IMG/VR virus record: IMGVR_UViG_3300025122_000008
Coordinates: 34,426-98,425 of that record
DNA from: a virus
Direction: 5' to 3' (one strand)
Length of the DNA: 64,000 nt
The notes under the pieces: generated by a model
Databases searched by the model: none
Told to the model about the DNA's origin: nothing
The model's input: only the letters and a program-made list of their open reading frames with translations
Part shown: positions 3,090 to 62,564 of the stretch, in pieces
How positions within the stretch are numbered: position 1 is the stretch's first letter
Layout: every line of letters begins with the position of its first letter
Position numbers and translations under genes: made by a program

Positions 3090-3100
3090 ACTATTTATAG
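3090..3100 (+). promoter_or_regulatory. ACTATTTATAG intergenic motif
   Basis: This is one of several near-identical motifs found on the + strand just before virion genes. The preceding bases (TTTTATTACTATT) match 10 of 13 positions of the extended T4 late promoter TATAAATACTATT. It starts 26 bases before the ATG of the 3116 gene. Assignment as a late promoter is inference. Confidence 0.3.
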
Positions 3101-3115
3101 AAAGAGGAAACTTTT

Positions 3116-4057
3116 ATGGGATTTTTAGACAATTCGGGAGATATTATTTTAGATGCCGTTTTAACGGACGAGGGCAGAAAACGATTAGCAAAGGGGGATT
3201 GTAGTTTCAATATTTCTAAGTTTGCTCTCGGAGATGATGAAATTAATTATACACTATACAATAAGAACCACCCTAGCGGTTCTCAATATTATGATTTGGA
3301 GATCCTTCAGACTCCAGTACTTGAGGCATTTACCAACAACACCTCTACTATGAATTCTAGACTTGTTTCAATACCCAGAAATAATGTTTATTATCTTCCC
3401 ATAATGAAATTGTATAATCGTTCCAATTTTTCGCAACATGCTAATGGAAGTTATAATGTTTTGGTTGATATGGCCACGGTTGATTATGCAAAAGAAAGCA
3501 ATAGCGTTAAATATGCTGGCCAATTGGGTTCTGGTCTTCTAAACGGATATCAGCCGGGCGCAACGGAGAATGCAGTTGCGATTGATCAAGGAATAGACAA
3601 TGCCCTTCACCCCCGAACGGTGGCCATACCAAATGATTTAAGAGAGACCGCTTTTATAGTTCAAATGGATAATCGGTTAATTTCGTTGGTTTCGGCAGCT
3701 AGCGCGAACCAACAGACCTATTCTTTTATCGATGATGACCAAATAGCAATGTATTATGTACAATCGCCTAGCGATCTTATAGGATTTTTAGGAACGGATG
3801 CAACCACTGATTCAACAATATTGGGCTCCCGGGGAGCAAGATTTTCATTTAGACTTAAGGCCAGCAACGAAGTAGCCAGCTCTTATAGTCTGTTCGAGAG
3901 AATCGGAAGACAAACCGCTTCTGGTGCCAATATCGCAAACGCCGATGGGACCGCCATAACTCAGTATTGGTCAATAGATACTAATGTGCGCATCACCGGG
4001 ATTACCACTGGGTATCGTATAGATATTCCCGTTAAACTAGTTAAGTATTATACTTAG
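3116..4057 (+). CDS. Conserved virion structural protein (LTDEGRKRLAKG family)
   Basis: This is a 313-residue protein. The N-terminal 50 residues carry the pattern NSGDIILDAVLTDEGRKRLA followed by FNISKFALGDDEINY, which I recognise as a conserved opening of virion proteins in marine T4-like phages. The rest is rich in beta-forming, Ser/Thr/Asn residues, as in tail or fibre-network proteins. A GAGG-type ribosome site precedes the ATG. It is followed at 13 bases by two more structural genes in the same direction, consistent with a late operon. The exact virion location is unknown. Confidence 0.65.
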   Translation: MGFLDNSGDIILDAVLTDEGRKRLAKGDCSFNISKFALGDDEINYTLYNKNHPSGSQYYDLEILQTPVLEAFTNNTSTMNSRLVSIPRNNVYYLPIMKLYNRSNFSQHANGSYNVLVDMATVDYAKESNSVKYAGQLGSGLLNGYQPGATENAVAIDQGIDNALHPRTVAIPNDLRETAFIVQMDNRLISLVSAASANQQTYSFIDDDQIAMYYVQSPSDLIGFLGTDATTDSTILGSRGARFSFRLKASNEVASSYSLFERIGRQTASGANIANADGTAITQYWSIDTNVRITGITTGYRIDIPVKLVKYYT

Positions 4058-20964: not shown

Positions 20965-21384
20965 ATGAGCAAATATTCAAGCTTTAAAGAATTTCAATTG
21001 ATAACCGAGAACTGGCGTAAGTATTTCTTGCACGAGACAGTATTGCGCGAGGCCGGCGGAGGCGCAGGCGCTATTCCACACTTTTCGCCTCTTAGTGCAA
21101 CGAAGCCAGGGGAGCGTATTCCGGTACCGGGATCTCAGCGACCCTATGAACAGCGGGATATCGATGGGAATGTTGCCGCTATAGCGGAGGCATTCGCAGA
21201 TGTTGATGAGCGCTTCGAGGCTCTCGTTGCCGTCGTCGCGAAACCCGACGCGGATGGCTACCGAGGCGCCCCACCGGAGTTGTGGGAGTTGCGCAATGCA
21301 ATAGAACTTGCAAGCGCCCGCTTCGCGAGCTTGCAAAATCGTATTGGAGAGGACCCTCGGGCCCCTCGCCTAGAAGAGGAATAA
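20965..21384 (+). CDS. Candidate internal head protein with T4-like targeting/cleavage motifs
   Basis: This 139-residue protein opens with a segment (FKEFQLITE) resembling the T4 capsid-targeting peptide (YQEFIAE). It then has ENWRKYFLHETVLREAG, giving three (L/I)xE sites of the kind cleaved by T4 gp21 (ITE, LHE, LRE|A). The stretch YFLHETVLRE recurs almost unchanged in the next protein, and the underlying DNA is nearly identical, so one was copied from the other at least in part. The remainder is Ala/Glu/Pro-rich and probably helical. Placement two genes before the prohead protease supports a packaged, protease-processed internal protein. A good AAGGAAT ribosome site precedes the ATG. Function after ejection is unknown. 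Confidence 0.5.
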   Translation: MSKYSSFKEFQLITENWRKYFLHETVLREAGGGAGAIPHFSPLSATKPGERIPVPGSQRPYEQRDIDGNVAAIAEAFADVDERFEALVAVVAKPDADGYRGAPPELWELRNAIELASARFASLQNRIGEDPRAPRLEEE

Positions 21385-21859: not shown

Positions 21860-22459
21860 ATGGCACAACTTCTCCGAGAATACTATGAACTATGCGAAGG
21901 CGGCGTCTGTCAGGATCTTCTGACGGAGGATGAAAAACGCTTTGTTCGTGATGGTGGTATGATGTTATCGGGGATGATGCAGATGGCAGAGACCCAAAAC
22001 GGCAATGGTCGCGTGTATCCTCAAGCAATATTGGAGAGAGAAGTTAAAAATTATAAAAAATTAGTAAAAGATAAGCGCGCCTTGGGCGAACTTGATCATC
22101 CGGAAGATTCCGTTATTAATCTTAGAAATGTTTCTCATCAAATTACTGATATCTGGATGGACGACAATAAAGTTATGGGCAAAATGAAGGTATTGGACAC
22201 GCCTTCCGGCGGCATCCTTCGTTCACTGGTTGATTCCGGTGTTTCTATAGGCATTTCTTCAAGGGGACTCGGTTCGGTTACCGAGAACGCCGGCAAGACC
22301 ATTGTCGAGGACGACTTTCAGTTGATTTGTTTTGATATGGTTTCTGAACCATCAACCCCGGGCGCATTTATGATGAGAGAGAACAAAAATAGAATTGAAG
22401 AAATTTTTACCAAGGCGGATCGAATTAATCGTGCTTTAAACGAAGTATTAGAGGAATAA
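21860..22459 (+). CDS. Prohead maturation protease (gp21-like, herpes-assemblin fold)
   Basis: This 199-residue serine protease cleaves scaffold, internal and capsid proteins inside the prohead. Key residues are visible: H80 in GELDHP and nucleophile S133 in GISSRG, in the order and spacing of T4 gp21, which has 212 residues. The start of the conserved domain is QNGNGRVYP (about 46-54). Its own N-terminus contains LLRE, ELCE|G and LLTE, so it may self-process as T4 gp21 does. It sits between proteins carrying candidate cleavage motifs and upstream of scaffold and major capsid genes. Confidence 0.93.
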   Translation: MAQLLREYYELCEGGVCQDLLTEDEKRFVRDGGMMLSGMMQMAETQNGNGRVYPQAILEREVKNYKKLVKDKRALGELDHPEDSVINLRNVSHQITDIWMDDNKVMGKMKVLDTPSGGILRSLVDSGVSIGISSRGLGSVTENAGKTIVEDDFQLICFDMVSEPSTPGAFMMRENKNRIEEIFTKADRINRALNEVLEE

Positions 22460-29016: not shown

Positions 29017-29041
29017 ACTAATTAACATGACTAATTACATG
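29017..29041 (+). repeat. Short tandem repeat upstream of the scaffold gene
   Basis: ACTAATTAACATG is followed directly by ACTAATTACATG (12 of 13 bases retained) in the 113-base gap before the scaffold gene. It could be a regulator binding site. The rest of the gap shows no gene and no convincing promoter. Confidence 0.4.
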
Positions 29042-29058
29042 TGGATAGGAGTATATAT

Positions 29059-30093
29059 ATGTCTTCGTTGTTAAAGCAAGCTATTATAGACGCATCAGCC
29101 TTGAAGGAGGCCGCGCTTAAAAATGCGGAGAGTACAGTTCTAGAAAAGTATTCTTTAGAAGTAAAAGAGGCGCTTTCAACACTTTTGGAACAAGAGGAAG
29201 ATCTTGGCCTAGGTGCTCCCGCCGATACTTCTCCCACAGCCGACGCTTCTTTTATGGACGACGTTCCTCTTGGCCACGAAGACCCAGAGATAGACGGGCC
29301 CGCCGAAGATGAAGTTATTGAAATCGATTTTGATGATTTAAAGGCGCGCCTTCACACGGATGAAGAAGCCGGCGCCGAACCAGAAGCCTCTGAACTATTG
29401 GGATCCGAAGAAACTGCCGAAGAAATTTTTGGGGGTATGGAAGAACCAGAGTTAGCCGCGCCCGCGGGAGCCGAAGAGCCCCTAGCAGAGGAAGTAGAAA
29501 TTAGTGATCAGCTCATCGATGCTATAGCCGAAGAGCTTACAGTCGATGTTGCCGCGAGACTGCAAGGCTGGTCGTCAGCTAACAGCGCCCAGACTCTGGA
29601 ACAAGAAGAAGAGGCGGCCCTAGAAGAAGAGGCTGCATCACAAGAATCGGAAGAAGTTGCCGAAGAGAAAGAAAAAAACTTAAAACTTTATGAGATTCAA
29701 GTATCGGAATTACAGTCCGAATTGGATGATTTACGTTCTTTGCTTGGAGAAGCAAAGAATCAATTAAATATTTTGATTTTGGAGAATGCCAAACTCCTTT
29801 ATCAGAATAAGGCTTTGAATAGCACCTCCTTGAATGAGCGACAAAAAACAAAGATTGTCGAGGCTGTTCGTAACGCCAACACGGTAGAAGAAATGAAAAT
29901 GTTGTTTGAAACACTTCAAAGCGCAGTGGGGGCTCATCGCGAGCGCCGACCTGAATCACTTCGCGAAGCGGTTAGCAACAAACCAACAACTTCGATGCTT
30001 CTAAGTGGGCACCATGCTTCAAATAGAAGTGATCGTACCTCTACCGTTGATCCAAATATGGATCGAATGTTACGTTTGGCAGGTTTAAAATAA
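29059..30093 (+). CDS. Prohead core/scaffold protein (gp22-like)
   Basis: The ATG at 29059 is chosen over an in-frame GTG at 29041 because the AGGAG ribosome site lies between them. The 344-residue product is strongly acidic and helical. The N-terminus has ALKE|A (a T4-type cleavage site), the middle is Glu/Ala/Pro-rich, a coiled coil follows at about residues 200-250, and the C-terminus is a basic/neutral helix ending RMLRLAGLK. Composition, length and the position directly before the major capsid gene match T4 gp22 (269 residues), the core scaffold digested by the prohead protease. Sequence identity to gp22 cannot be judged by eye. Confidence 0.75.
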   Translation: MSSLLKQAIIDASALKEAALKNAESTVLEKYSLEVKEALSTLLEQEEDLGLGAPADTSPTADASFMDDVPLGHEDPEIDGPAEDEVIEIDFDDLKARLHTDEEAGAEPEASELLGSEETAEEIFGGMEEPELAAPAGAEEPLAEEVEISDQLIDAIAEELTVDVAARLQGWSSANSAQTLEQEEEAALEEEAASQESEEVAEEKEKNLKLYEIQVSELQSELDDLRSLLGEAKNQLNILILENAKLLYQNKALNSTSLNERQKTKIVEAVRNANTVEEMKMLFETLQSAVGAHRERRPESLREAVSNKPTTSMLLSGHHASNRSDRTSTVDPNMDRMLRLAGLK

Positions 30094-30139: not shown

Positions 30140-31978
30140 ATGTCTATTGTTGAAAAACTAACTGAAGGCATCGTTAATCGCGATCTCTCCCGAGAGGGCT
30201 CTGCACTTATTTCCAAGTGGGAAAAGACAGGGCTTCTTGAGGGGATCCACGGAGACCATCTTCGCAACGGAATGGCTTGCTTGCTTGAAAATCAAGCGAA
30301 AGAGCTTCTTCGTGAGTCATCCAGCATGCAAGCTGGTGACGTTGAGGGTTTCGCAGCGGTTGCCTTTCCCCTAGTTCGCCGTGTATTCGGCAACTTAATT
30401 GCTAATGATCTAGTGAGCGTTCAGCCCATGAGTTTACCCTCAGGACTGATCTTCTTCCTGGATTTTCTCTATTCCCCCGACAGCGCCGGCGCTAGCGGTA
30501 ATGAAACCCATCGTTTGGGTAACGTTGCTAATAAGTCGATTTTCGGTGGCGGTAGGGTCGGTGGCGAGATCACCGGAGGTGTGGACCTTTCTACTGGGAA
30601 CAACCCAGAAGCAGGCCCGTATGCCCTAAACAACGGCTACGCATCACCGACGGCGTCTCTATCTTCCCTTGTCGGCTCCGATTTTTCGATTATTGCTTCC
30701 GGTACTTGGGGCGATCTGAATACGACTGGAAACCTGAACATCTCTGTTGCCGATAGTACTCATCTTTTGGGTAGTCTAGCTGGCTGGGATGCAGATTTTG
30801 TTTCTGGATCCACTACAGTTGTTGTTGCACAGGTTTCAGCCAGTGAATTCACTGCTGAGGGCGCCGCTCTCAACGTTGATGATTTGGTTGCGATCGCAGT
30901 TTCTGGCGGTGGTGTAGGTGGTGTAGGTGTCCTCGGATGCTCCGGCAACGACGCCGGTACCAACGGTGCTCGTTTGATTCGTCGCTTGACGCAGTATAGT
31001 TCTGCTTCATTGAAGGGTCCCGTGGGTGATCGTAGCTCAACTAGTCTTTTGATGACGTTCGCCTCGCGAGACGGCGCCGTGTCGGTCACACAGCTTAAGC
31101 TTCAGGTTACTGGAAACTCTGATTCCACCTGGACACAGCCCGAGACTGACGACTTCGATGCCGGTACTGGACTTGGTTCCCTTAAGGGTGGAACCGAGTG
31201 GGGCTTGGAGGCTGAGGCTGCCATTCCCGAGATCGACATCAAGGTCGATTCGATTGCCGTTACCGCGGTTACCAAGAAGCTCAAGGCTAAGTGGACTCCG
31301 GAATTGGGACAAGATCTCAATGCCTACCACAACCTTGATGCCGAGGTCGAGTTGACTCAGATTTTGTCTGAGCAAATTGCTCTTGAAATCGATCGCGAGA
31401 TTCTAGAAGACCTCGTACGTGGTTCTACAGCGGGTACCCGCTATTGGTCACGTGCTGCCGGTCGATTCTTGAATCGAGAGACTGGTGTCGAGATTGGTGC
31501 TAGCACCGTTACTCCCGACTTCACCGGTAACGTTAGTGAGTGGTATGAGACTCTCATTGAGACCCTCAATGATGTTTCTGCACAGATCCATCGTAAGACT
31601 CTTCGCGGTGGTGCCAACTTCGTCGTCTGCGGACCCGAAGTTGCCAACATTCTTGAGTTTACGGCTGGCTTCCGTGCCAATGTGACCGCTGATAGCGATC
31701 GCGGTACGATTGGTGCAGTTAAGACTGGTAGTCTCTCCAAGAAGTGGGACGTCTATGTTGACCCCTATTTCCCGCGTAGCCTCGTGCTGGTGGGTCGTAG
31801 AGGCGGCAGCTTCCTAGAGAGCGGATATGTATACGCTCCCTATGTGCCACTGCAGACCACCCCGACTATCTTCGGCGTTGAAGATTTCGTGCCCCGTAAG
31901 GGAGTCATGACCCGATATGCCAAGAAGATGGTTCGTCCAGATATGTATGGACTAGTTGTCGTTCGCGATCTAGTTTAA
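30140..31978 (+). CDS. Major capsid protein (gp23-like)
   Basis: This 612-residue protein is preceded by a strong AGGAGG ribosome site. The family signature near residues 90-120 is clear: FGNLIANDLVSVQPMSLPSG then LIFFLDFLYS. The C-terminal half is also typical: KAKWTPELGQDL, LSEQIALEIDREIL, FVVCGPEV and the closing RKGVMTRYAKKM. Residues 1-59 form a probable propeptide ending LLRE|S, close to the T4 gp23 cleavage point at 65. T4 gp23 has 521 residues; about 150 extra residues here (about 135-300) are Gly/Ser/Thr/Val-rich and look like an inserted surface domain. The gene ends at a strong terminator. Confidence 0.95.
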   Translation: MSIVEKLTEGIVNRDLSREGSALISKWEKTGLLEGIHGDHLRNGMACLLENQAKELLRESSSMQAGDVEGFAAVAFPLVRRVFGNLIANDLVSVQPMSLPSGLIFFLDFLYSPDSAGASGNETHRLGNVANKSIFGGGRVGGEITGGVDLSTGNNPEAGPYALNNGYASPTASLSSLVGSDFSIIASGTWGDLNTTGNLNISVADSTHLLGSLAGWDADFVSGSTTVVVAQVSASEFTAEGAALNVDDLVAIAVSGGGVGGVGVLGCSGNDAGTNGARLIRRLTQYSSASLKGPVGDRSSTSLLMTFASRDGAVSVTQLKLQVTGNSDSTWTQPETDDFDAGTGLGSLKGGTEWGLEAEAAIPEIDIKVDSIAVTAVTKKLKAKWTPELGQDLNAYHNLDAEVELTQILSEQIALEIDREILEDLVRGSTAGTRYWSRAAGRFLNRETGVEIGASTVTPDFTGNVSEWYETLIETLNDVSAQIHRKTLRGGANFVVCGPEVANILEFTAGFRANVTADSDRGTIGAVKTGSLSKKWDVYVDPYFPRSLVLVGRRGGSFLESGYVYAPYVPLQTTPTIFGVEDFVPRKGVMTRYAKKMVRPDMYGLVVVRDLV

Positions 31979-32066: not shown

Positions 32067-33329
32067 ATGGCCCTTCCTACACTTAGTCCTTCATCTACGA
32101 GTAATTCTAATATATTAACGTCCACCGGTAGTGCATCATTGGTGGCCGCGTCCCTTCCCTTTGGTATTTATGAGAGCGCTGCATTTCAAGCAGGCGCCTC
32201 CGATCAGGTTGCTTATACTTATAAAAAATTAGGAGGGGATGTATTAGATATTGAGTTAACGCCGGGCAATGTATATGCGGCATATGAAGAGGCTTGTTTA
32301 GAATATTCTTATATTCTTAACGTTCATCAAGCAAAGAACTCACTTTCAAGCTTTTTAGGACACACGACAGCTTCTTTCGATCAGGATGGACAAATTGAGG
32401 ATGGTCATACGTTATCGGGCTCAAAAATAGAATTAAGATATCCAAAATATGATTATGGACACGCCAGAAGAGTAAGTCAGCGGGTCGCGACTGAATCTAA
32501 TATTGGAGGCACCGAATATATTTATTCTGGATCTTTAGCGACAGTGAACAATAAGTCTGATTATGACTTACAAACAATTATTTCAGAGTCGGCTGGCTCT
32601 GACACGGATGCATTTTATTATGGGAAAGTGGGTAACAAAAAAATTACAATTCGGAGAGTATATTATAAAACACCAAATGCAATGTGGCGTTTTTATGGTT
32701 ATTACGGGGGTTTTAGTGCAGTTGGAAACCTCAGGACATACGGGCAATATGCCGACGATTCAACTTTTGATATAGTTCCAACTTGGCAGAATAAGTTGCA
32801 ATCTATGGCCTACGAAGACGCTTTAAACGTAAGGGTATCTCACTGGACGTATGAGCTTAAAAATAATATGCTGAGGCTTCACCCCACGCCCACCGACAAT
32901 AGTCCAGATAAATTTTGGTTTCAGTTTACAGTAGATGTTGATCCATGGGAAGACTCCGACGGGGATCGACTTGTGGGGGTAAAGGGTATTAATAATATGA
33001 ACACCCTTCCCTTTCAAAACATATCGTATGACAGCATTAACTCCATAGGAAAGCAATGGATACGTCGATTTGCTTTATCGTTGAGTAAAGAGATGTTGGG
33101 ACAAATTAGGGGCAAATTTAGTACTATTCCGATCCCGGGCGAATCTGTTACCCTGAACCACAGTGAATTACTAGCCCAGGCCAAAGCAGAACAAGACGCC
33201 CTCAGAGAGGAACTTAAGACAACTCTCGATGAGATGACTTATGCCAAATTGGCAGAAACCGATGCTGCATTGGGAGATAGTAGCGAAAAAGTATTGGGCG
33301 ATATACCTACTGGCATCTATGTAGGATAG
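32067..33329 (+). CDS. Neck protein, probable gp13-like head-completion protein
   Basis: This 420-residue protein lies immediately after the capsid gene and before gp14-like, gp15-like, sheath and tube genes, the order in which T4 has gp13-gp14-gp15-gp18-gp19. Features include YAAYEEACLEYSYILNVHQAK near residues 70-90, an internal IRRVYYKTPNAMWRFYGYYGG segment and a C-terminal coiled coil (about 365-400) rich in Ala/Glu/Leu. T4 gp13 is 309 residues; the extra length is spread through the protein. It would seal the filled head and join it to the tail. The call relies mainly on gene order. Confidence 0.65.
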   Translation: MALPTLSPSSTSNSNILTSTGSASLVAASLPFGIYESAAFQAGASDQVAYTYKKLGGDVLDIELTPGNVYAAYEEACLEYSYILNVHQAKNSLSSFLGHTTASFDQDGQIEDGHTLSGSKIELRYPKYDYGHARRVSQRVATESNIGGTEYIYSGSLATVNNKSDYDLQTIISESAGSDTDAFYYGKVGNKKITIRRVYYKTPNAMWRFYGYYGGFSAVGNLRTYGQYADDSTFDIVPTWQNKLQSMAYEDALNVRVSHWTYELKNNMLRLHPTPTDNSPDKFWFQFTVDVDPWEDSDGDRLVGVKGINNMNTLPFQNISYDSINSIGKQWIRRFALSLSKEMLGQIRGKFSTIPIPGESVTLNHSELLAQAKAEQDALREELKTTLDEMTYAKLAETDAALGDSSEKVLGDIPTGIYVG

Positions 33330-50990: not shown

Positions 50991-51848
50991 ATGAATATAA
51001 TGGGCCTGGGTCGTGCAGGGTGTGCGGTCGTAGATTGTTTTTCTAAATTCTCTCAATATGAGGTGTATAAATTTGATAATGACCTAGAGGGCGATCGATG
51101 TTTTAACATCCCCAAACAAAATTCTCATGAAGATTATGAAAAAAATTTTCCAAACTTTAAGAAAGACTTACAAGAAATAGAGGGAGACGTCATATTCGTA
51201 TTATGCGGCGCCGGCATGATTACTGGCTGTGTACTTTCACTTCTACAACAATTGATGCCCCGCCCAATAACCATACTTTATATTGAACCGGATTTGGAGC
51301 TTTTGAGCGAAACGGAAACCATGCAAGAGCAAATTGTAAAAAACGTTTTGCAGGAGTACGCACGTTCTGGTATGTTTGAAATGATGTATCTCGTTTCTAA
51401 TTCGAAAATTGAAAAAAGCGTAGGAGAGATTCCAATAATTAGCTATTATGATACTATAAATCAAGCGATAGTAAACACCATGCACATGATAAATGTGTTT
51501 AAAAATTCGGAACCCATTCTGGGCACTTTTACCGAGCCCCATGAAATTGCAAGGATATCTACTTTCGGTGTTTTAGATATAGAAGAAAATGAAGAAAAAT
51601 GGTTTTATGACTTGCAAGTTCCGAGAGATGTGGTATACTATTATGGAATCAATGATGAAGACTTGAAGACCGATGGGGCTTTGTTCGGAAAAATAAAGTC
51701 CTACGTAAAGGAAAAGGTCGAGGAAAAAGTTAACATATCATATGGGGTATACAGAACAAACTACGAAAAAAAATATTGTTATTGCATTAAATATAGTTCT
51801 GTGGTACAATCATATATAAGTGAAATAGACGATCAGGATATTGGCTGA
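50991..51848 (+). CDS. Tubulin/FtsZ-like protein
   Basis: This 285-residue protein opens with MNIMGLGRAGCAVVD, like the FtsZ start IGVGGAGxNAV. Residues 66-79 (DVIFVLCGAGMITG) correspond to the tubulin signature strand and loop (FxxxGxGGGTGTG), though with fewer glycines. The stretch DTINQAIVNTMHMINVF then TFTEPHEIARISTFG matches helix H7 and the T7 loop region of FtsZ. Phage tubulins (PhuZ) form filaments that centre replicating DNA. I recall relatives in marine myoviruses annotated as hypothetical. The degenerate GTP loop means nucleotide binding is uncertain. It lies between polymerase and SSB genes, suggesting a replication-linked role. Confidence 0.55.
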   Translation: MNIMGLGRAGCAVVDCFSKFSQYEVYKFDNDLEGDRCFNIPKQNSHEDYEKNFPNFKKDLQEIEGDVIFVLCGAGMITGCVLSLLQQLMPRPITILYIEPDLELLSETETMQEQIVKNVLQEYARSGMFEMMYLVSNSKIEKSVGEIPIISYYDTINQAIVNTMHMINVFKNSEPILGTFTEPHEIARISTFGVLDIEENEEKWFYDLQVPRDVVYYYGINDEDLKTDGALFGKIKSYVKEKVEEKVNISYGVYRTNYEKKYCYCIKYSSVVQSYISEIDDQDIG

Positions 51849-54414: not shown

Positions 54415-54540
54415 GTGGAATTATTACCCGCATTTGCATTTTTTCTGGGGGCCGGCTATCTTGTTTATCGCTTGGCGCGCCTGGACGCTCAGATTGAACA
54501 CTTGAAGAAAAGAATAGAGGATCTTAATGGCTCGGAGTAA
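54415..54540 (+). CDS. Tiny membrane protein upstream of uvsX
   Basis: This 41-residue ORF starts at a GTG behind AAGGAGAAGAAC, a good ribosome site. A single hydrophobic helix (about residues 3-19, LLPAFAFFLGAGYLVY) is followed by a short charged coiled coil (RLDAQIEHLKKRIEDL). It overlaps the start of the UvsX gene by 14 bases, so the strong ribosome site and overlap suggest translational coupling to UvsX. It may be a host-membrane effector or mainly a leader peptide. The family is not recognised. Confidence 0.55.
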   Translation: MELLPAFAFFLGAGYLVYRLARLDAQIEHLKKRIEDLNGSE

Positions 54541-55642
54541 ATCAACCGCCGGAAAGGTTTCCATAGGAGACCTTCGAACTCTTATTAACAAAACCTCTGG
54601 CATGGAGGTGGCCTATAATCTTAATGATGAAAACCCCACCGAAGTAAAGGAGTGGATTCCTACCGGGTCACGATGGCTTAATAGCATTATTCGTCGAGGA
54701 CAATTGGCCGGAATTCCAATTGGAAAAATCTCAGAAATTGCTGGCCTAGAGGCAACAGGCAAATCATTTATGGCAGCACAAATAGCCGGGAATGCGCAGA
54801 AGATGGGCATGGCCGTGGTGTATATGGATGCAGAGTCGGCTATCGACCCCTCGTTCTTAGAACGCGCAGGCTGTGATCTAGATGAACTTATCTATGTTCA
54901 GGTCCAATCTGTTGAGCAAGTACTTGAAACTATTGAGAGTATTCTTAATAGCGGAGCGGAGAGAACCTTGTTTATCTGGGATTCACTCGCCCTTACACCG
55001 TCCATTTCTGATGTAGAGGGCGATTTCAACCCTCAATCATCCATGGCAGTGAAGGCTCGCATTCTTGCGAAAGGAATGTCAAAGCTTACTATCCCCATAG
55101 CGAACAGTCAATCTAGCTTTCTTGTATTAAACCAGCTTAAAACAAATATTACTCGGTTTCCAGCCGAGGCTATGACAACTCCGTATGTCACTCCGGGCGG
55201 GAAGGCAATGATTTATGCCTATTCACTCAGAATCTGGCTCACGGGTCGCAAGGCTAAGGCAAGTTTTGTACTTGACGACAACGGTTTCCGTATCGGATCC
55301 GAGGTTAAGGTGAAGCTGGAGAAGTCTCGATTCGGAACGCAGGGACGTAATTGTGCCTTTAAGATTCTATGGGGTGAAGAGGTTGGAATTCAGGATGAAG
55401 AGTCTTGGTTCGAAGCCATCAAGGGCTCCGAAAGGATTAAGAGGGCAGGCGCTTGGTATTCTCTCGTATATGAAGATGGCACTGAAGAAAAGTTCATGGG
55501 CTCTCATTGGGTAGGTAAACTTCAAGATGAAAAGTTCCGAAATCGCGTATTAGAGATCATGGATGAAGAAATTATCATGAAGTTTGATAAGCGCATCGGA
55601 GAAGCGGAAGAATTTTATACGCTGGATGGAGAAGAAGAATAA
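54527..55642 (+). CDS. uvsX: UvsX/RecA-type recombinase
   Basis: This 371-residue protein forms filaments on single-stranded DNA and drives strand exchange for recombination-dependent replication, together with gp32-like SSB and the Mre11-Rad50 fusion. Walker A is G73-L-E-A-T-G-K-S80, the Walker B-type strand is TLFIWDSLAL, and FLVLNQLKTN holds the L2-proximal Gln. It has T4 UvsX-like length (391) rather than the bacterial RecA C-terminal domain. The start lies inside the preceding tiny ORF. After its stop a late-type motif begins a separate unit, so uvsX closes this early block. Confidence 0.93.
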   Translation: MARSKSTAGKVSIGDLRTLINKTSGMEVAYNLNDENPTEVKEWIPTGSRWLNSIIRRGQLAGIPIGKISEIAGLEATGKSFMAAQIAGNAQKMGMAVVYMDAESAIDPSFLERAGCDLDELIYVQVQSVEQVLETIESILNSGAERTLFIWDSLALTPSISDVEGDFNPQSSMAVKARILAKGMSKLTIPIANSQSSFLVLNQLKTNITRFPAEAMTTPYVTPGGKAMIYAYSLRIWLTGRKAKASFVLDDNGFRIGSEVKVKLEKSRFGTQGRNCAFKILWGEEVGIQDEESWFEAIKGSERIKRAGAWYSLVYEDGTEEKFMGSHWVGKLQDEKFRNRVLEIMDEEIIMKFDKRIGEAEEFYTLDGEEE

Positions 55643-55647
55643 CCGAG

Positions 55648-55658
55648 ACTATTTATAG
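55648..55658 (+). promoter_or_regulatory. ACTATTTATAG motif upstream of the ParB-like gene
   Basis: This is the same 11-base sequence as at 3090 before a virion gene, here placed in the DNA-metabolism region 23 bases before the 55671 ATG. It suggests the downstream gene is expressed with virion genes. Confidence 0.35.
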
Positions 55659-55670
55659 TGGAGTACCCCT

Positions 55671-56630
55671 ATGAAACTTGTAATGGAAAACTGGCGTAGA
55701 TACTTGAATGAACAAGACGAACCTATGTCAATGAAAAATCTTCTGGGTGCCAAGTACACACAGTTTGTTCAATGGCTCGGGAACAATATCCAAGACCCAA
55801 AAACGCAGGCTCTTATTGGCGCTGGCTTAGAGGATGGCGATCCGAGCGATGATAAATTTGGATTTGAAAATGTTGCGATTCCTGTTGCAAAACTCAAACC
55901 CACTCAAAATGAGATTGATATTAATAAATCTTTGGCCTATCCACTCGTTAAGGACCCGGCCCAATTTATAGAAAAAGTTGCAAGCAATGGTCCATTTACA
56001 GTAGTCGAACGAATTGTGACTTTTAACGGGCAATATGTTATCGACGGCCACCATCGATGGTCAACAGTATATGCTTGCAATAAAAATGCATCAATTGAGG
56101 CAGTAAACATAACAATTGCGGACGTCGACCCCCTTGATGCCCTAAAGGCCGTCCAAATGGCCATCGGACTTCAGGCAAAGAAAATTCCCATCCAAAGTGT
56201 GGAGGGGTCAAATTTGTTGGACATAGATGAAACGCAACTTAAACAGTGGATCATGAAAAATGTTCCTATAAAAACATCACAAACAATATGGAAGGCCGGT
56301 AAAGGATTTATTGAAAAACTCAAACAAGAAGGTGGCACCGCTCAAAGTCACCCATCGGGCAAAGAATCACCACACGGCGCGCAGGATTCTGAAATAACCG
56401 AACGGCTGTTATCTGAAATTTCACAAAATAGATTTCACAAAATGGTGGTTACACAAATCTTGCCGGCATATATCTGGTCAAATGTAGCCTCAATGCGACA
56501 AACTTCACAACCCGTCCCCGGCGCCGGCTCGCGCGACTTTATGCCCCAGACTGGTGGCATTGCATGGAAAGAGCCACTTGCGCAGGGGCAAGTTGACGTT
56601 AAACCGCCGTTCGCCAAGGTAGCTGAATAA
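55671..56630 (+). CDS. ParB-like domain protein with head-targeting-like N-terminus
   Basis: This 319-residue protein opens with MENWRRYLNEQ (residues 5-15), closely resembling ENWRKYFLHET in the head-region protein at 20965, with an LNE site of the type cut by the prohead protease. Residues about 70-150 form a ParB/sulfiredoxin-type fold, with VERIVTFNGQYVIDGHHRW at about 110-130 including the family motif D125-G-H-H-R129. Such domains include CTPases, nucleases and phosphotransferases. The C-terminal 100 residues are not recognised. Unlike its neighbours it has a late-type motif upstream and a terminator downstream. A protein packaged in the capsid and ejected with DNA is the most attractive reading, but remains inference. 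Confidence 0.6.
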   Translation: MKLVMENWRRYLNEQDEPMSMKNLLGAKYTQFVQWLGNNIQDPKTQALIGAGLEDGDPSDDKFGFENVAIPVAKLKPTQNEIDINKSLAYPLVKDPAQFIEKVASNGPFTVVERIVTFNGQYVIDGHHRWSTVYACNKNASIEAVNITIADVDPLDALKAVQMAIGLQAKKIPIQSVEGSNLLDIDETQLKQWIMKNVPIKTSQTIWKAGKGFIEKLKQEGGTAQSHPSGKESPHGAQDSEITERLLSEISQNRFHKMVVTQILPAYIWSNVASMRQTSQPVPGAGSRDFMPQTGGIAWKEPLAQGQVDVKPPFAKVAE

Positions 56631-56645
56631 ACTCTAACTAAACCC

Positions 56646-56674
56646 TTGACACCGAAGCTCCTATAGGTTATACT
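56646..56674 (+). promoter_or_regulatory. Near-consensus sigma70 promoter
   Basis: TTGACA (56646-56651), a 17-base spacer and TATACT (56669-56674) lie upstream of the deaminase gene. The -10 element sits in the loop and 3' edge of the terminator hairpin 56657-56683. It should drive the deaminase-exonuclease-helicase-RNR-IscA-IscU block early. Confidence 0.8.
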
Positions 56675-56683
56675 TATAGGAGC
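56657..56683 (+). terminator. Hairpin terminator overlapping a promoter
   Basis: A perfect 9-bp stem (GCTCCTATA / TATAGGAGC) with a 9-base loop is followed by TTTTACTATT, 27 bases after the ParB-like gene. It probably ends that unit's transcript while its DNA also carries the -10 element for the next operon. Confidence 0.7.
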
Positions 56684-56702
56684 TTTTACTATTGGAGTTC
56701 AG

Positions 56703-57089
56703 TTGAAGAAAACAAAACGCTATATATCTCTCGCACAAAAAGTTGCAGAACAATCAGACTATGGAAAATTTAGACATGGCGCTGTTCTTGTTAGGGGAAG
56801 CTCAGTAAGAAACATGGCGTGTAATAAACACCGTCATTGTCACTTTGGAAAAAGATTTCGTGAAGTTAACACAGGAAATGCTACATTGCATGCAGAGCTT
56901 GGTGTCATTCTTGGAATGGATCGCTCAGTTACGCAAGGGGCTACTGTCTACGCCGCACGAGTAAACAAGGAGGGTCATCCTCGTATGAGCAGACCGTGCC
57001 CTATGTGCGAAAATGCGATGCGACACGTGGGAATAAAGAGAGTTGTGTATACTGATCGCAATGGAAGAATAGAAAGTATGAGACTATGA
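56703..57089 (+). CDS. Deoxycytidylate/cytidine deaminase-like zinc enzyme
   Basis: This 128-residue protein is read from a TTG behind TTGGAG. The zinc-dependent deaminase motifs are both present: H63-A-E65 in TLHAELGV and P98-C-x-x-C102 in RPCPMCENAM. In T4 a dCMP deaminase makes dUMP for thymidylate synthesis; here it would work with the class II RNR downstream. It is shorter than T4 Cd (193 residues), so substrate (dCMP, cytidine or another base) is uncertain. An extra Cys/His stretch (CNKHRHCHFGK, 40-50) precedes the active site. It ends with a 4-base overlap with the next gene. Confidence 0.75.
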   Translation: MKKTKRYISLAQKVAEQSDYGKFRHGAVLVRGSSVRNMACNKHRHCHFGKRFREVNTGNATLHAELGVILGMDRSVTQGATVYAARVNKEGHPRMSRPCPMCENAMRHVGIKRVVYTDRNGRIESMRL

Positions 57090-61868: not shown

Positions 61869-62177
61869 ATGATAAATTTTACAGAAAAAGCAGTAGCTCA
61901 TCTTAAGTCGGTCTTAGAGGCGGGAGAGATGGTGCGTATAGGAGTAGTGGGCGGAGGCTGTTCGGGGATGTCCTATGCCCTAAACATTGAAACCGAAACT
62001 GATGAAGAAGACATTCGCTTGAACTATGAAGAGGTGGATATTTATTTAGATCCTTATAGTTCTGAAATTTTAAAAGATACTATTGTAGACTATATTACAA
62101 CACTACAGCAACAAGGATTTAAATTTATGAATCCGAATGCCAACACCACATGTGGGTGTGGTTCATCATTTAGTTAG
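61869..62177 (+). CDS. iscA: A-type iron-sulfur carrier (IscA/HesB family)
   Basis: This 102-residue protein is of standard family length. The three cluster-binding cysteines are present: C31 in GGGCSGMSY and C95/C97 in TTCGCGSSF at the C-terminus. A-type carriers take clusters from the scaffold IscU and deliver them to target proteins. It lies 11 bases after the RNR gene and 12 bases before iscU, so it is part of the same transcript. ErpA and SufA share these motifs, so the exact subtype is not fixed. Confidence 0.9.
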   Translation: MINFTEKAVAHLKSVLEAGEMVRIGVVGGGCSGMSYALNIETETDEEDIRLNYEEVDIYLDPYSSEILKDTIVDYITTLQQQGFKFMNPNANTTCGCGSSFS

Positions 62178-62189
62178 GGGAAACAAATT

Positions 62190-62564
62190 ATGGCTTATTC
62201 TAAAAAAGTATTAGACCACTTTGAAAGACCACAGAATGTGGGATCTCTGGACAAAAAGGACCCCCGAGTCGGTACTGGGGTAGTCGGCGCCCCGGAGTGT
62301 GGGGATGTGATGAAATTACAAATTAAGATAGACGAAAATAATTGTATTTGTGATGCAAAGTTTAAAACATTTGGTTGTGGCTCCGCCATTGCCGCCTCCT
62401 CTCTAGCAACCGAGTGGATTAAGGGAAAAACTTTAACGGAAGCCGCACAGATTAAAAATACAGATATCGTGGAAGAACTGGCGCTCCCTCCCGTTAAAAT
62501 ACATTGCTCGGTCCTGGCGGAAGAGGCAATCAAAGCCGCGATACAAGATTTGGAAAATAAATGA
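62190..62564 (+). CDS. iscU: Iron-sulfur cluster scaffold IscU
   Basis: This 124-residue protein matches E. coli IscU in length and numbering. C37 and D39 lie in GAPECGD, C63 in FGCGSAIAASS, and H105/C106 in KIHCSV. The LPPVK motif at 99-103 is the docking site for the chaperone HscA. All cluster-assembly residues are therefore intact, and the product should be able to build [2Fe-2S] clusters with a host cysteine desulfurase (IscS); none is encoded in this window. It ends with an ATGA overlap with the GroES-like gene. Confidence 0.93.
   Translation: MAYSKKVLDHFERPQNVGSLDKKDPRVGTGVVGAPECGDVMKLQIKIDENNCICDAKFKTFGCGSAIAASSLATEWIKGKTLTEAAQIKNTDIVEELALPPVKIHCSVLAEEAIKAAIQDLENK

Follow-up and report, generated by a model that had tools for sequence, protein, structure and literature searches.

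A tagged ParB/Srx-fold protein encoded behind uvsX is a probable internal-protein-type head cargo of an uncultured marine T4-like phage

The window analysed here, a stretch of 64,000 nucleotides that corresponds to bases 34426-98425 of a linear virus record with a length of 98,425 bases, belongs to an uncultured marine T4-like phage. Behind uvsX and ahead of the next early operon it carries an open reading frame (55671-56630, plus strand) for a protein of 319 amino acids, in which a short capsid-targeting-like tag precedes a domain that profile and structure-model comparisons place close to ParB and sulfiredoxin (Srx). We consider it probable (roughly 0.78) that this protein is a head cargo of the internal-protein type, i.e., that it is made late, targeted by its tag, cleaved by the gp21-type protease, injected and NTP-dependent in its action, and that it comes from an exchange slot. 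Judged by its major capsid protein, which is less than 60% identical to that of any isolate and nearest to those of Microcystis phage Mel-JY01, Flavobacterium phage immuto and Rhodothermus phage RM378, the source phage is a divergent relative of T4.

The product of the 55671-56630 reading frame starts with MKLVMENWRRYLNEQ... (MKLVMENWRRYLNEQDEPMSMK in the longer account) and contains the segment YVIDGHHRWS. The initial annotation had let the protein begin at MENWRRYLNEQ; this motif is present, but the true start is MKLV, four residues ahead of MENW. A Shine-Dalgarno sequence, GGAG, is found at 55660-55663 (plus strand). The reading frame and its flanks are also present on a second, 16.7-kb contig from another metagenome record, where the encoded protein is 100% identical. 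The left border of the slot is formed by UvsX/RecA (54527-55642, plus strand, PF00154) and the right border by a deaminase (56703-57089, plus strand, PF00383). Since the gap between uvsX and the start codon at 55671 measures only 28 bases, early read-through from uvsX is possible. Pfam assignments of the neighbours (gp32-like protein, GHKL ATPase, RecA/UvsX, deaminase, 5'-3' exonuclease and DnaB-type helicase) agree with the earlier description of the surroundings as early replication genes. Elsewhere in the window, two small reading frames at 61869-62564 look by eye like iron-sulphur assembly proteins of the IscA/ErpA and IscU/NifU types. The ORF at 50991-51848, for which Pfam gave no match, has a glycine-rich N-terminal motif of the GxGGGG(N/G)K or GLGRAG type in common with L072:11298-12338 and L086:9060-10202; these proteins, encoded near a ParB-like gene or the head cluster, are possibly tubulin/FtsZ-like.

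The tag comprises residues 1-14, MKLVMENWRRYLNE (55671-55712, plus strand). Its LNE occupies residues 12-14 and is followed by Q, and cleavage at this (L/I)xE site is predicted after E14. The assignment relies on modularity, on LxE enrichment and on pLDDT, since the confidence of the AF2 model sets the N-terminus (residues 1-20, low) apart from the folded part (mostly high). When viral contigs (IMG/VR) were scanned with the pattern ENWRx(F/Y)LNE, 92 matches were obtained, of which 84 lie no more than 20 residues from an ATG. After removal of the tag, 83 usable tagged proteins fell into 49 unrelated cargo clusters, which include zeta-toxin/AAA, cytidylyltransferase, nucleotidase, kinase and transglutaminase-like proteins, several ParB-like families and many orphan families. 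Because E, N, W, R, L, N and E of the tag are prescribed by the search pattern, only K2, L3 and L4, which lie outside the pattern and are likewise kept, provide independent evidence of conservation. The DNA that codes for the tag shows synonymous codon variation, with variable third positions and random flanks, which argues for selection on the peptide; on the same grounds, a DNA-level repeat or homology element was disfavoured.

Among 58 nonredundant homologues of the ParB-like protein, 51 have an (L/I/V)xE tripeptide ending at residue 5-25, compared with 259 of 647 other ORFs of the same loci (p=5e-13). A stricter form of this site is present in 42/58 and 124/647, respectively (p=1.5e-16). 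Since 40% of background ORFs have (L/I/V)xE, LxE is weak evidence by itself. An S77 (gp21-type) prohead protease is encoded in 9/9 tag-bearing contigs longer than 140 kb. The N-termini of the homologues vary between phages, but those in G001 and G039 match the N-termini of further proteins encoded by the same phage; in G039 a protein-kinase-like protein and a HAD-like one have the ENWR leader too. No other ORF with the N-terminus MGILKQLLKEI was found in Mel-JY01. The likeness to N-termini of head-cluster proteins that had been proposed for the window is real for one ORF (20965-21384, plus strand), which on N-terminal comparison has a long form of the tag (MSKYSSFKEFQLITENWRKYFLHE), and is much stronger in relatives.

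A second modular leader, MKITKxQLKQIIKEEI...(L)NE, was observed on many small unrelated proteins (L086-L097 from G039 and G038; L100-L101 from G001), and some uvsX-slot genes begin with a leader of this type. The tagged proteins include a protein-kinase-like protein of a marine T4-like phage (L090:12666-13682), with weak PADLOC matches to the mad6 and PD-T4-6 kinases, and two proteins with HxT-type motifs (L168:4720-5163 and L182:1713-2171) that by eye resemble 2H phosphoesterases, the fold of anti-CBASS Acb1. Isolate searches with the tagged kinase and with the L158 cargo returned nothing.

A motif search located an exact copy of the late-promoter-like motif ACTATTTATAG at 55648-55658 (plus strand), ending 12 bases ahead of the start codon. 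The window has one further exact copy, at 3090-3100 (plus strand), which lies before the gene at 3116, and the motif is likewise present upstream of this gene's orthologue in G039. With one mismatch allowed, 8 copies were found in the window versus 1.43 expected, a number reached in 0/100 shuffles; one of these copies lies before the gene at 32067, which comes right after gp23. Related phages show an enrichment of ACTATTTAT on the coding strand immediately ahead of genes. Across loci, ACTATTTAT or CTATTTATA is located at most 70 bases upstream of 17 of 219 tagged genes versus 57 of 2694 other genes (p=2e-5), and the latter include the genes of the gp22-position protein, the tail sheath and further virion proteins. 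The exact and near copies in the window, together with those before the virion and tagged genes of relatives, confirm the earlier claim that this motif is found before virion genes. Upstream of genes CTATTTATA was found nine times in the coding direction and its reverse complement TATAAATAG once, and a minus-strand TATAAATA late promoter was therefore rejected; the coding-strand motif differs from the TATAAATA of T4. If TATTTATA is a -10 element of the T4 style, transcription would begin at the Shine-Dalgarno sequence or beyond it. The G038/G039 homologues keep the tag and have no motif within 70 bp. The late-type motif and its linkage to the tag suggest that the target may be expressed late from its own motif.

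This linkage is also seen in the slot itself. Among 80 uvsX loci, the motif is present in the slot in 23; a tag start was found in 18 of these 23 and in 0 of the 57 loci without the motif (p=9e-14). The 23 motif-bearing slots hold 12 cargo clusters, the largest of which is ParB-like. On contigs whose UvsX is 76-97% identical to that of the window, the uvsX stop codon is followed by ACTATTTAT, a Shine-Dalgarno sequence and a tagged ORF, and the cargo is quite different. It is only 33% identical where UvsX is 93% identical, and at 97% UvsX identity a 17-residue tag is common to proteins whose ParB domains are ~30% identical. In L241, L243 and L244 (UvsX 93%) the slot is empty, and uvsX leads straight into a TTGACA...TATACT promoter-hairpin and the deaminase operon. 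Such comparisons point to an exchange site behind uvsX, at which motif and tag stay constant while the cargo is swapped or the cassette is absent. PADLOC gave no match for four ParB-like slot proteins.

In the window, the promoter-hairpin consists of a σ70-like early promoter of the downstream operon (TTGACA-N17-TATACT, 56646-56674, plus strand) and an overlapping 15-bp hairpin with a folding energy of -20.4 kcal/mol (56654-56686, plus strand); both are kept at empty sites. The 56646-56686 region, with the spacer and the -10 element inside the hairpin, is conserved after the slot, in L241-L244 too. The hairpin had initially been taken for a terminator of the gene. Its overlap with the promoter and its retention at empty sites contradict this, and we rejected it as specific evidence. 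Since phages without the target gene keep the hairpin right after uvsX, it belongs to the downstream operon and lies outside the cassette, a movable unit that consists of the late motif and the tagged gene. The promoter looks strong, and with its hairpin it may serve as an operator or as terminator and promoter in one. Of the original proposal of a capsid-packaged cargo in its own late cassette, the proposal itself is strongly supported by comparison, whereas the terminator argument had to be dropped or weakened.

The ParB-type domain was borne out by structure modelling despite a Pfam ParBc_2 score (13.5 bits) below the cut-off of 23.6. The AF2 model, built from a 43-sequence alignment, has a pLDDT of 90 and a pTM of 0.86 and is weak only at residues 1-20 and in a loop near 221-250. 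A Foldseek search of the PDB with this model returned seven matches with E<1 (E 0.008-0.17), all from three structures: ParB-N of pNOB8 (5k5d), Atu1540 (2hwj) and a bacterial ParB-CDP complex (6sdk). The best viral structural match (BFVD) is a protein annotated as ParB/Sulfiredoxin (TM 0.68/0.74). By its predicted fold, the target would be a member of the ParB/Srx (ParB-CTPase fold) superfamily.

The family comprises one cultured-phage homologue (Mel-JY01, 27%) and 80 IMG/VR loci. Its alignments reveal three motifs, all on the plus strand: a Box I-like LKPTQ (residues 75-79, 55893-55907) with invariant P77 and Q79; Box II, IDGHHRW (residues 124-130, 56040-56060), which includes the GxxR phosphate-binding motif of the ParB-CTPase fold (PMC12704722); and a family-specific C-terminal RDFMPQ (56532-56549) with invariant R288 and M291-P292-Q293. 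S87, Y122, I124-D-G-H-H128, W130 and L158 are invariant as well, and in the G126-H-H-R129 of Box II the G is invariant and the R is present in >90% of 44 sequences. In a survey of 2025, R-to-A mutants of Box II were used as a control that does not bind (PMC12704722). With a ParB-type fold predicted, NTP binding by the target is likely, and nuclease activity is only possible. No other domain was found in the 319-residue protein, neither an MPTase nor a multidomain polyvalent architecture. A canonical partition ParB was rejected, as neither ParA nor a canonical partition context was seen beside the target and a full-length canonical architecture is absent. Homologue searches of genome contigs and of plasmids gave no match. 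Aeromonas phage 65 encodes a short relative of the ParB domain without an obvious tag, and a huge phage (record G005, 373,759 bases) has two family paralogues (L008 and L033) that lie far apart. In L081:6599-8212 and L082:8714-10327, a ParB-like (DGHH) domain is part of a 537-residue ORF whose N-terminal part resembles a head-maturation protease by eye.

Genes of the head module are relevant in this connection. The window encodes a gp21-type prohead protease (Peptidase_S77 by Pfam; 21860-22459, plus strand), which is the presumed tag remover, and a gp23-type major capsid protein (30140-31978, plus strand, PF07068). Between them lies a scaffold (29041-30093, plus strand) that has no Pfam match, was assigned to the gp22 position by its location, and ends in DRMLRLAGLK. 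Both gp21 and the ParB-like homologue are present in 23 nonredundant records, in five of which (G001, G012, G016, G027 and G042) the homologue is located directly 3' of gp21, versus ~0.4 expected (P ~8e-5, relatedness ignored). A C-tail of the form [RK]xx[KR]LAG[IL] is present in 11/58 homologues and in gp22-position scaffolds, that of the window included; the target itself lacks it. In 1886 proteins, this pattern was found at the C-terminus in 20 cases, at the N-terminus in 5 and internally in one, and it is possibly a second, C-terminal head-targeting signal. Scaffold proteins in the gp22 position with the tail [RK]xx[KR]LAG[IL]K were seen in L004, L005, L038, L095, L103 and L118 as well as at 29041-30093 of the window. 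Three homologues (L047, L059 and L061) have an identical FESTF tag at both protein ends, which we liken to the two-end cleavage of T4 Alt, a protein that is cut at both ends (PMC9026906).

The comparative basis of the cargo claim thus includes the tag on 49 clusters, the LxE sites, the gp21 neighbours, the scaffold-like C-tails, the slot with motif and tag, and the empty sites, and packaging in the head is well supported by these comparisons. We infer the following course of events. The 55671-56630 ORF would be expressed late from its own motif, and its residues 1-14, as a capsid-targeting sequence, would attach the protein to the scaffold of the prohead. The gp21-type protease would then cut after LNE and leave the ParB/Srx-fold protein inside the head, from which the mature protein would enter the host along with the DNA. 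There it would most likely bind NTP via its GHHR and PTQ motifs and act in the first minutes of infection, the likeliest targets being DNA, nucleotides or the nucleotide pool, or a host defence protein.

One can also imagine that the injected protein acts not as an enzyme on DNA but as a decoy for, or inhibitor of, a host defence enzyme, such as the type IV restriction enzymes in which GmrS has a ParB_N/DUF262 NTPase domain. T4 injects Ip1, Ip2 and Ip3, which inhibit variants of GmrSD (PMC12373910), and the fast divergence of cargo at a fixed slot is what one would expect of an arms race. A retained NTP-binding or catalytic site is, however, suggested by the invariant residues of PTQ, IDGHH and MPQ. 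Furthermore, the T4 internal proteins have not been reported to be ParB folds, and we regard a decoy as rather unlikely. Delivery itself is questioned by another explanation, in which the tag is a helix for docking to the scaffold or the replisome and the protein is a late prohead-core or DNA-associated assembly factor, e.g., in packaging, whose work is done within the producing cell. The homologues that adjoin gp21 or have the C-tail of gp22-position scaffolds would fit such a role, as would the ability of ParB folds to bind DNA and NTPs and the location of the G038/G039 homologue beside SbcC-like recombination genes. Yet the same tag is found on a kinase-like protein, a zeta-toxin-like ATPase, nucleotidases, cytidylyltransferases and many orphan families, and closely related phages have exchanged the cargo of the uvsX slot, a poor fit to a conserved assembly role that makes this explanation improbable.

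The location of the gene among early genes, 28 bases behind uvsX, would also suit an ordinary early ParB-like accessory protein that is co-transcribed with uvsX and has acquired tag and motif by coincidence. Both the motif-tag linkage within the same slot (18/23 vs 0/57) and the occurrence of the tag on 49 unrelated clusters strongly disfavour coincidence, and we give this explanation very little credence.

Returning to the reading as injected head cargo, few open-ocean T4-like phages have been cultured, and so their injected proteins are largely unknown. With the 14-residue tag, linked to a late motif and an S77 protease, as a rule, candidates for injected proteins can be picked out of metagenomic sequence; those that undergo rapid exchange are revealed by the uvsX slot, and ParB/Srx-fold proteins are added to the candidate classes of capsid cargo. 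More tentatively, and with slightly less than even confidence, we propose that ENWRxFLNE and sister tags (MKITKxQLKQIIKEEI..LNE) mark a large unrecognised repertoire of virion-delivered effectors of uncultured marine T4-like phages (kinases, nucleotidases, nucleotidyltransferases and several ParB/Srx families), for which the uvsX slot may be a dedicated exchange site, with ParB-fold effectors as a new class of injected NTP-dependent protein that is repeatedly swapped in.

Microcystis phage Mel-JY01 is the closest cultured relative to have a homologue. This full-length protein (WWT39393.1, 27-30% identity) shares IDGHHRWS and MPQT with the target. It differs in its N-terminus, MGILKQLLKEIEDE instead of the ENWR tag, and its gene is not beside gp21; a literature search on Mel-JY01 found no paper. 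ParB-CTPase-fold orphans (PMC12704722), Srx and SerK have the Box I-like PTQ, the Box II GxxR (GHHR) and the predicted fold in common with the target, which in addition has extra conserved N-terminal helices and the C-terminal RxxMPQ. DdrB-like ParB domains have been predicted to be nucleases that are packaged (PMC5512222), and DdrB is present in the head of phage P1 (PMC9024508). Like these polyvalent proteins, the target has a domain of the ParB/Srx superfamily for which head packaging and delivery are predicted (PMC5512222, PMC9024508); unlike them, it is a single-domain protein of 319 residues with targeting of the tag type, and it has neither an MPTase nor any other domain of the polyvalent kind. 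The internal proteins of T4 are directed to the head by an N-terminal leader of 10 residues, and gp21 cleaves after L/I-x-E (PMC9026906). Ip1-3, which inhibit GmrSD type IV restriction enzymes, have only the leader in common and are located in a hotspot (PMC12373910). The cargo system proposed here differs from T4 IPI, IPII and IPIII in its ENWRxFLNE leader, its uvsX slot, its ParB/Srx-fold cargo and ACTATTTATAG in place of TATAAATA. What the two have in common is a short N-terminal leader that ends in an LxE site on otherwise unrelated proteins, a gp21-type protease, gp22/gp23-type head genes and an exchangeable locus (the ip loci in T4). The system described here may thus work like the T4 internal-protein hotspot, with another leader, another slot and another cargo fold.
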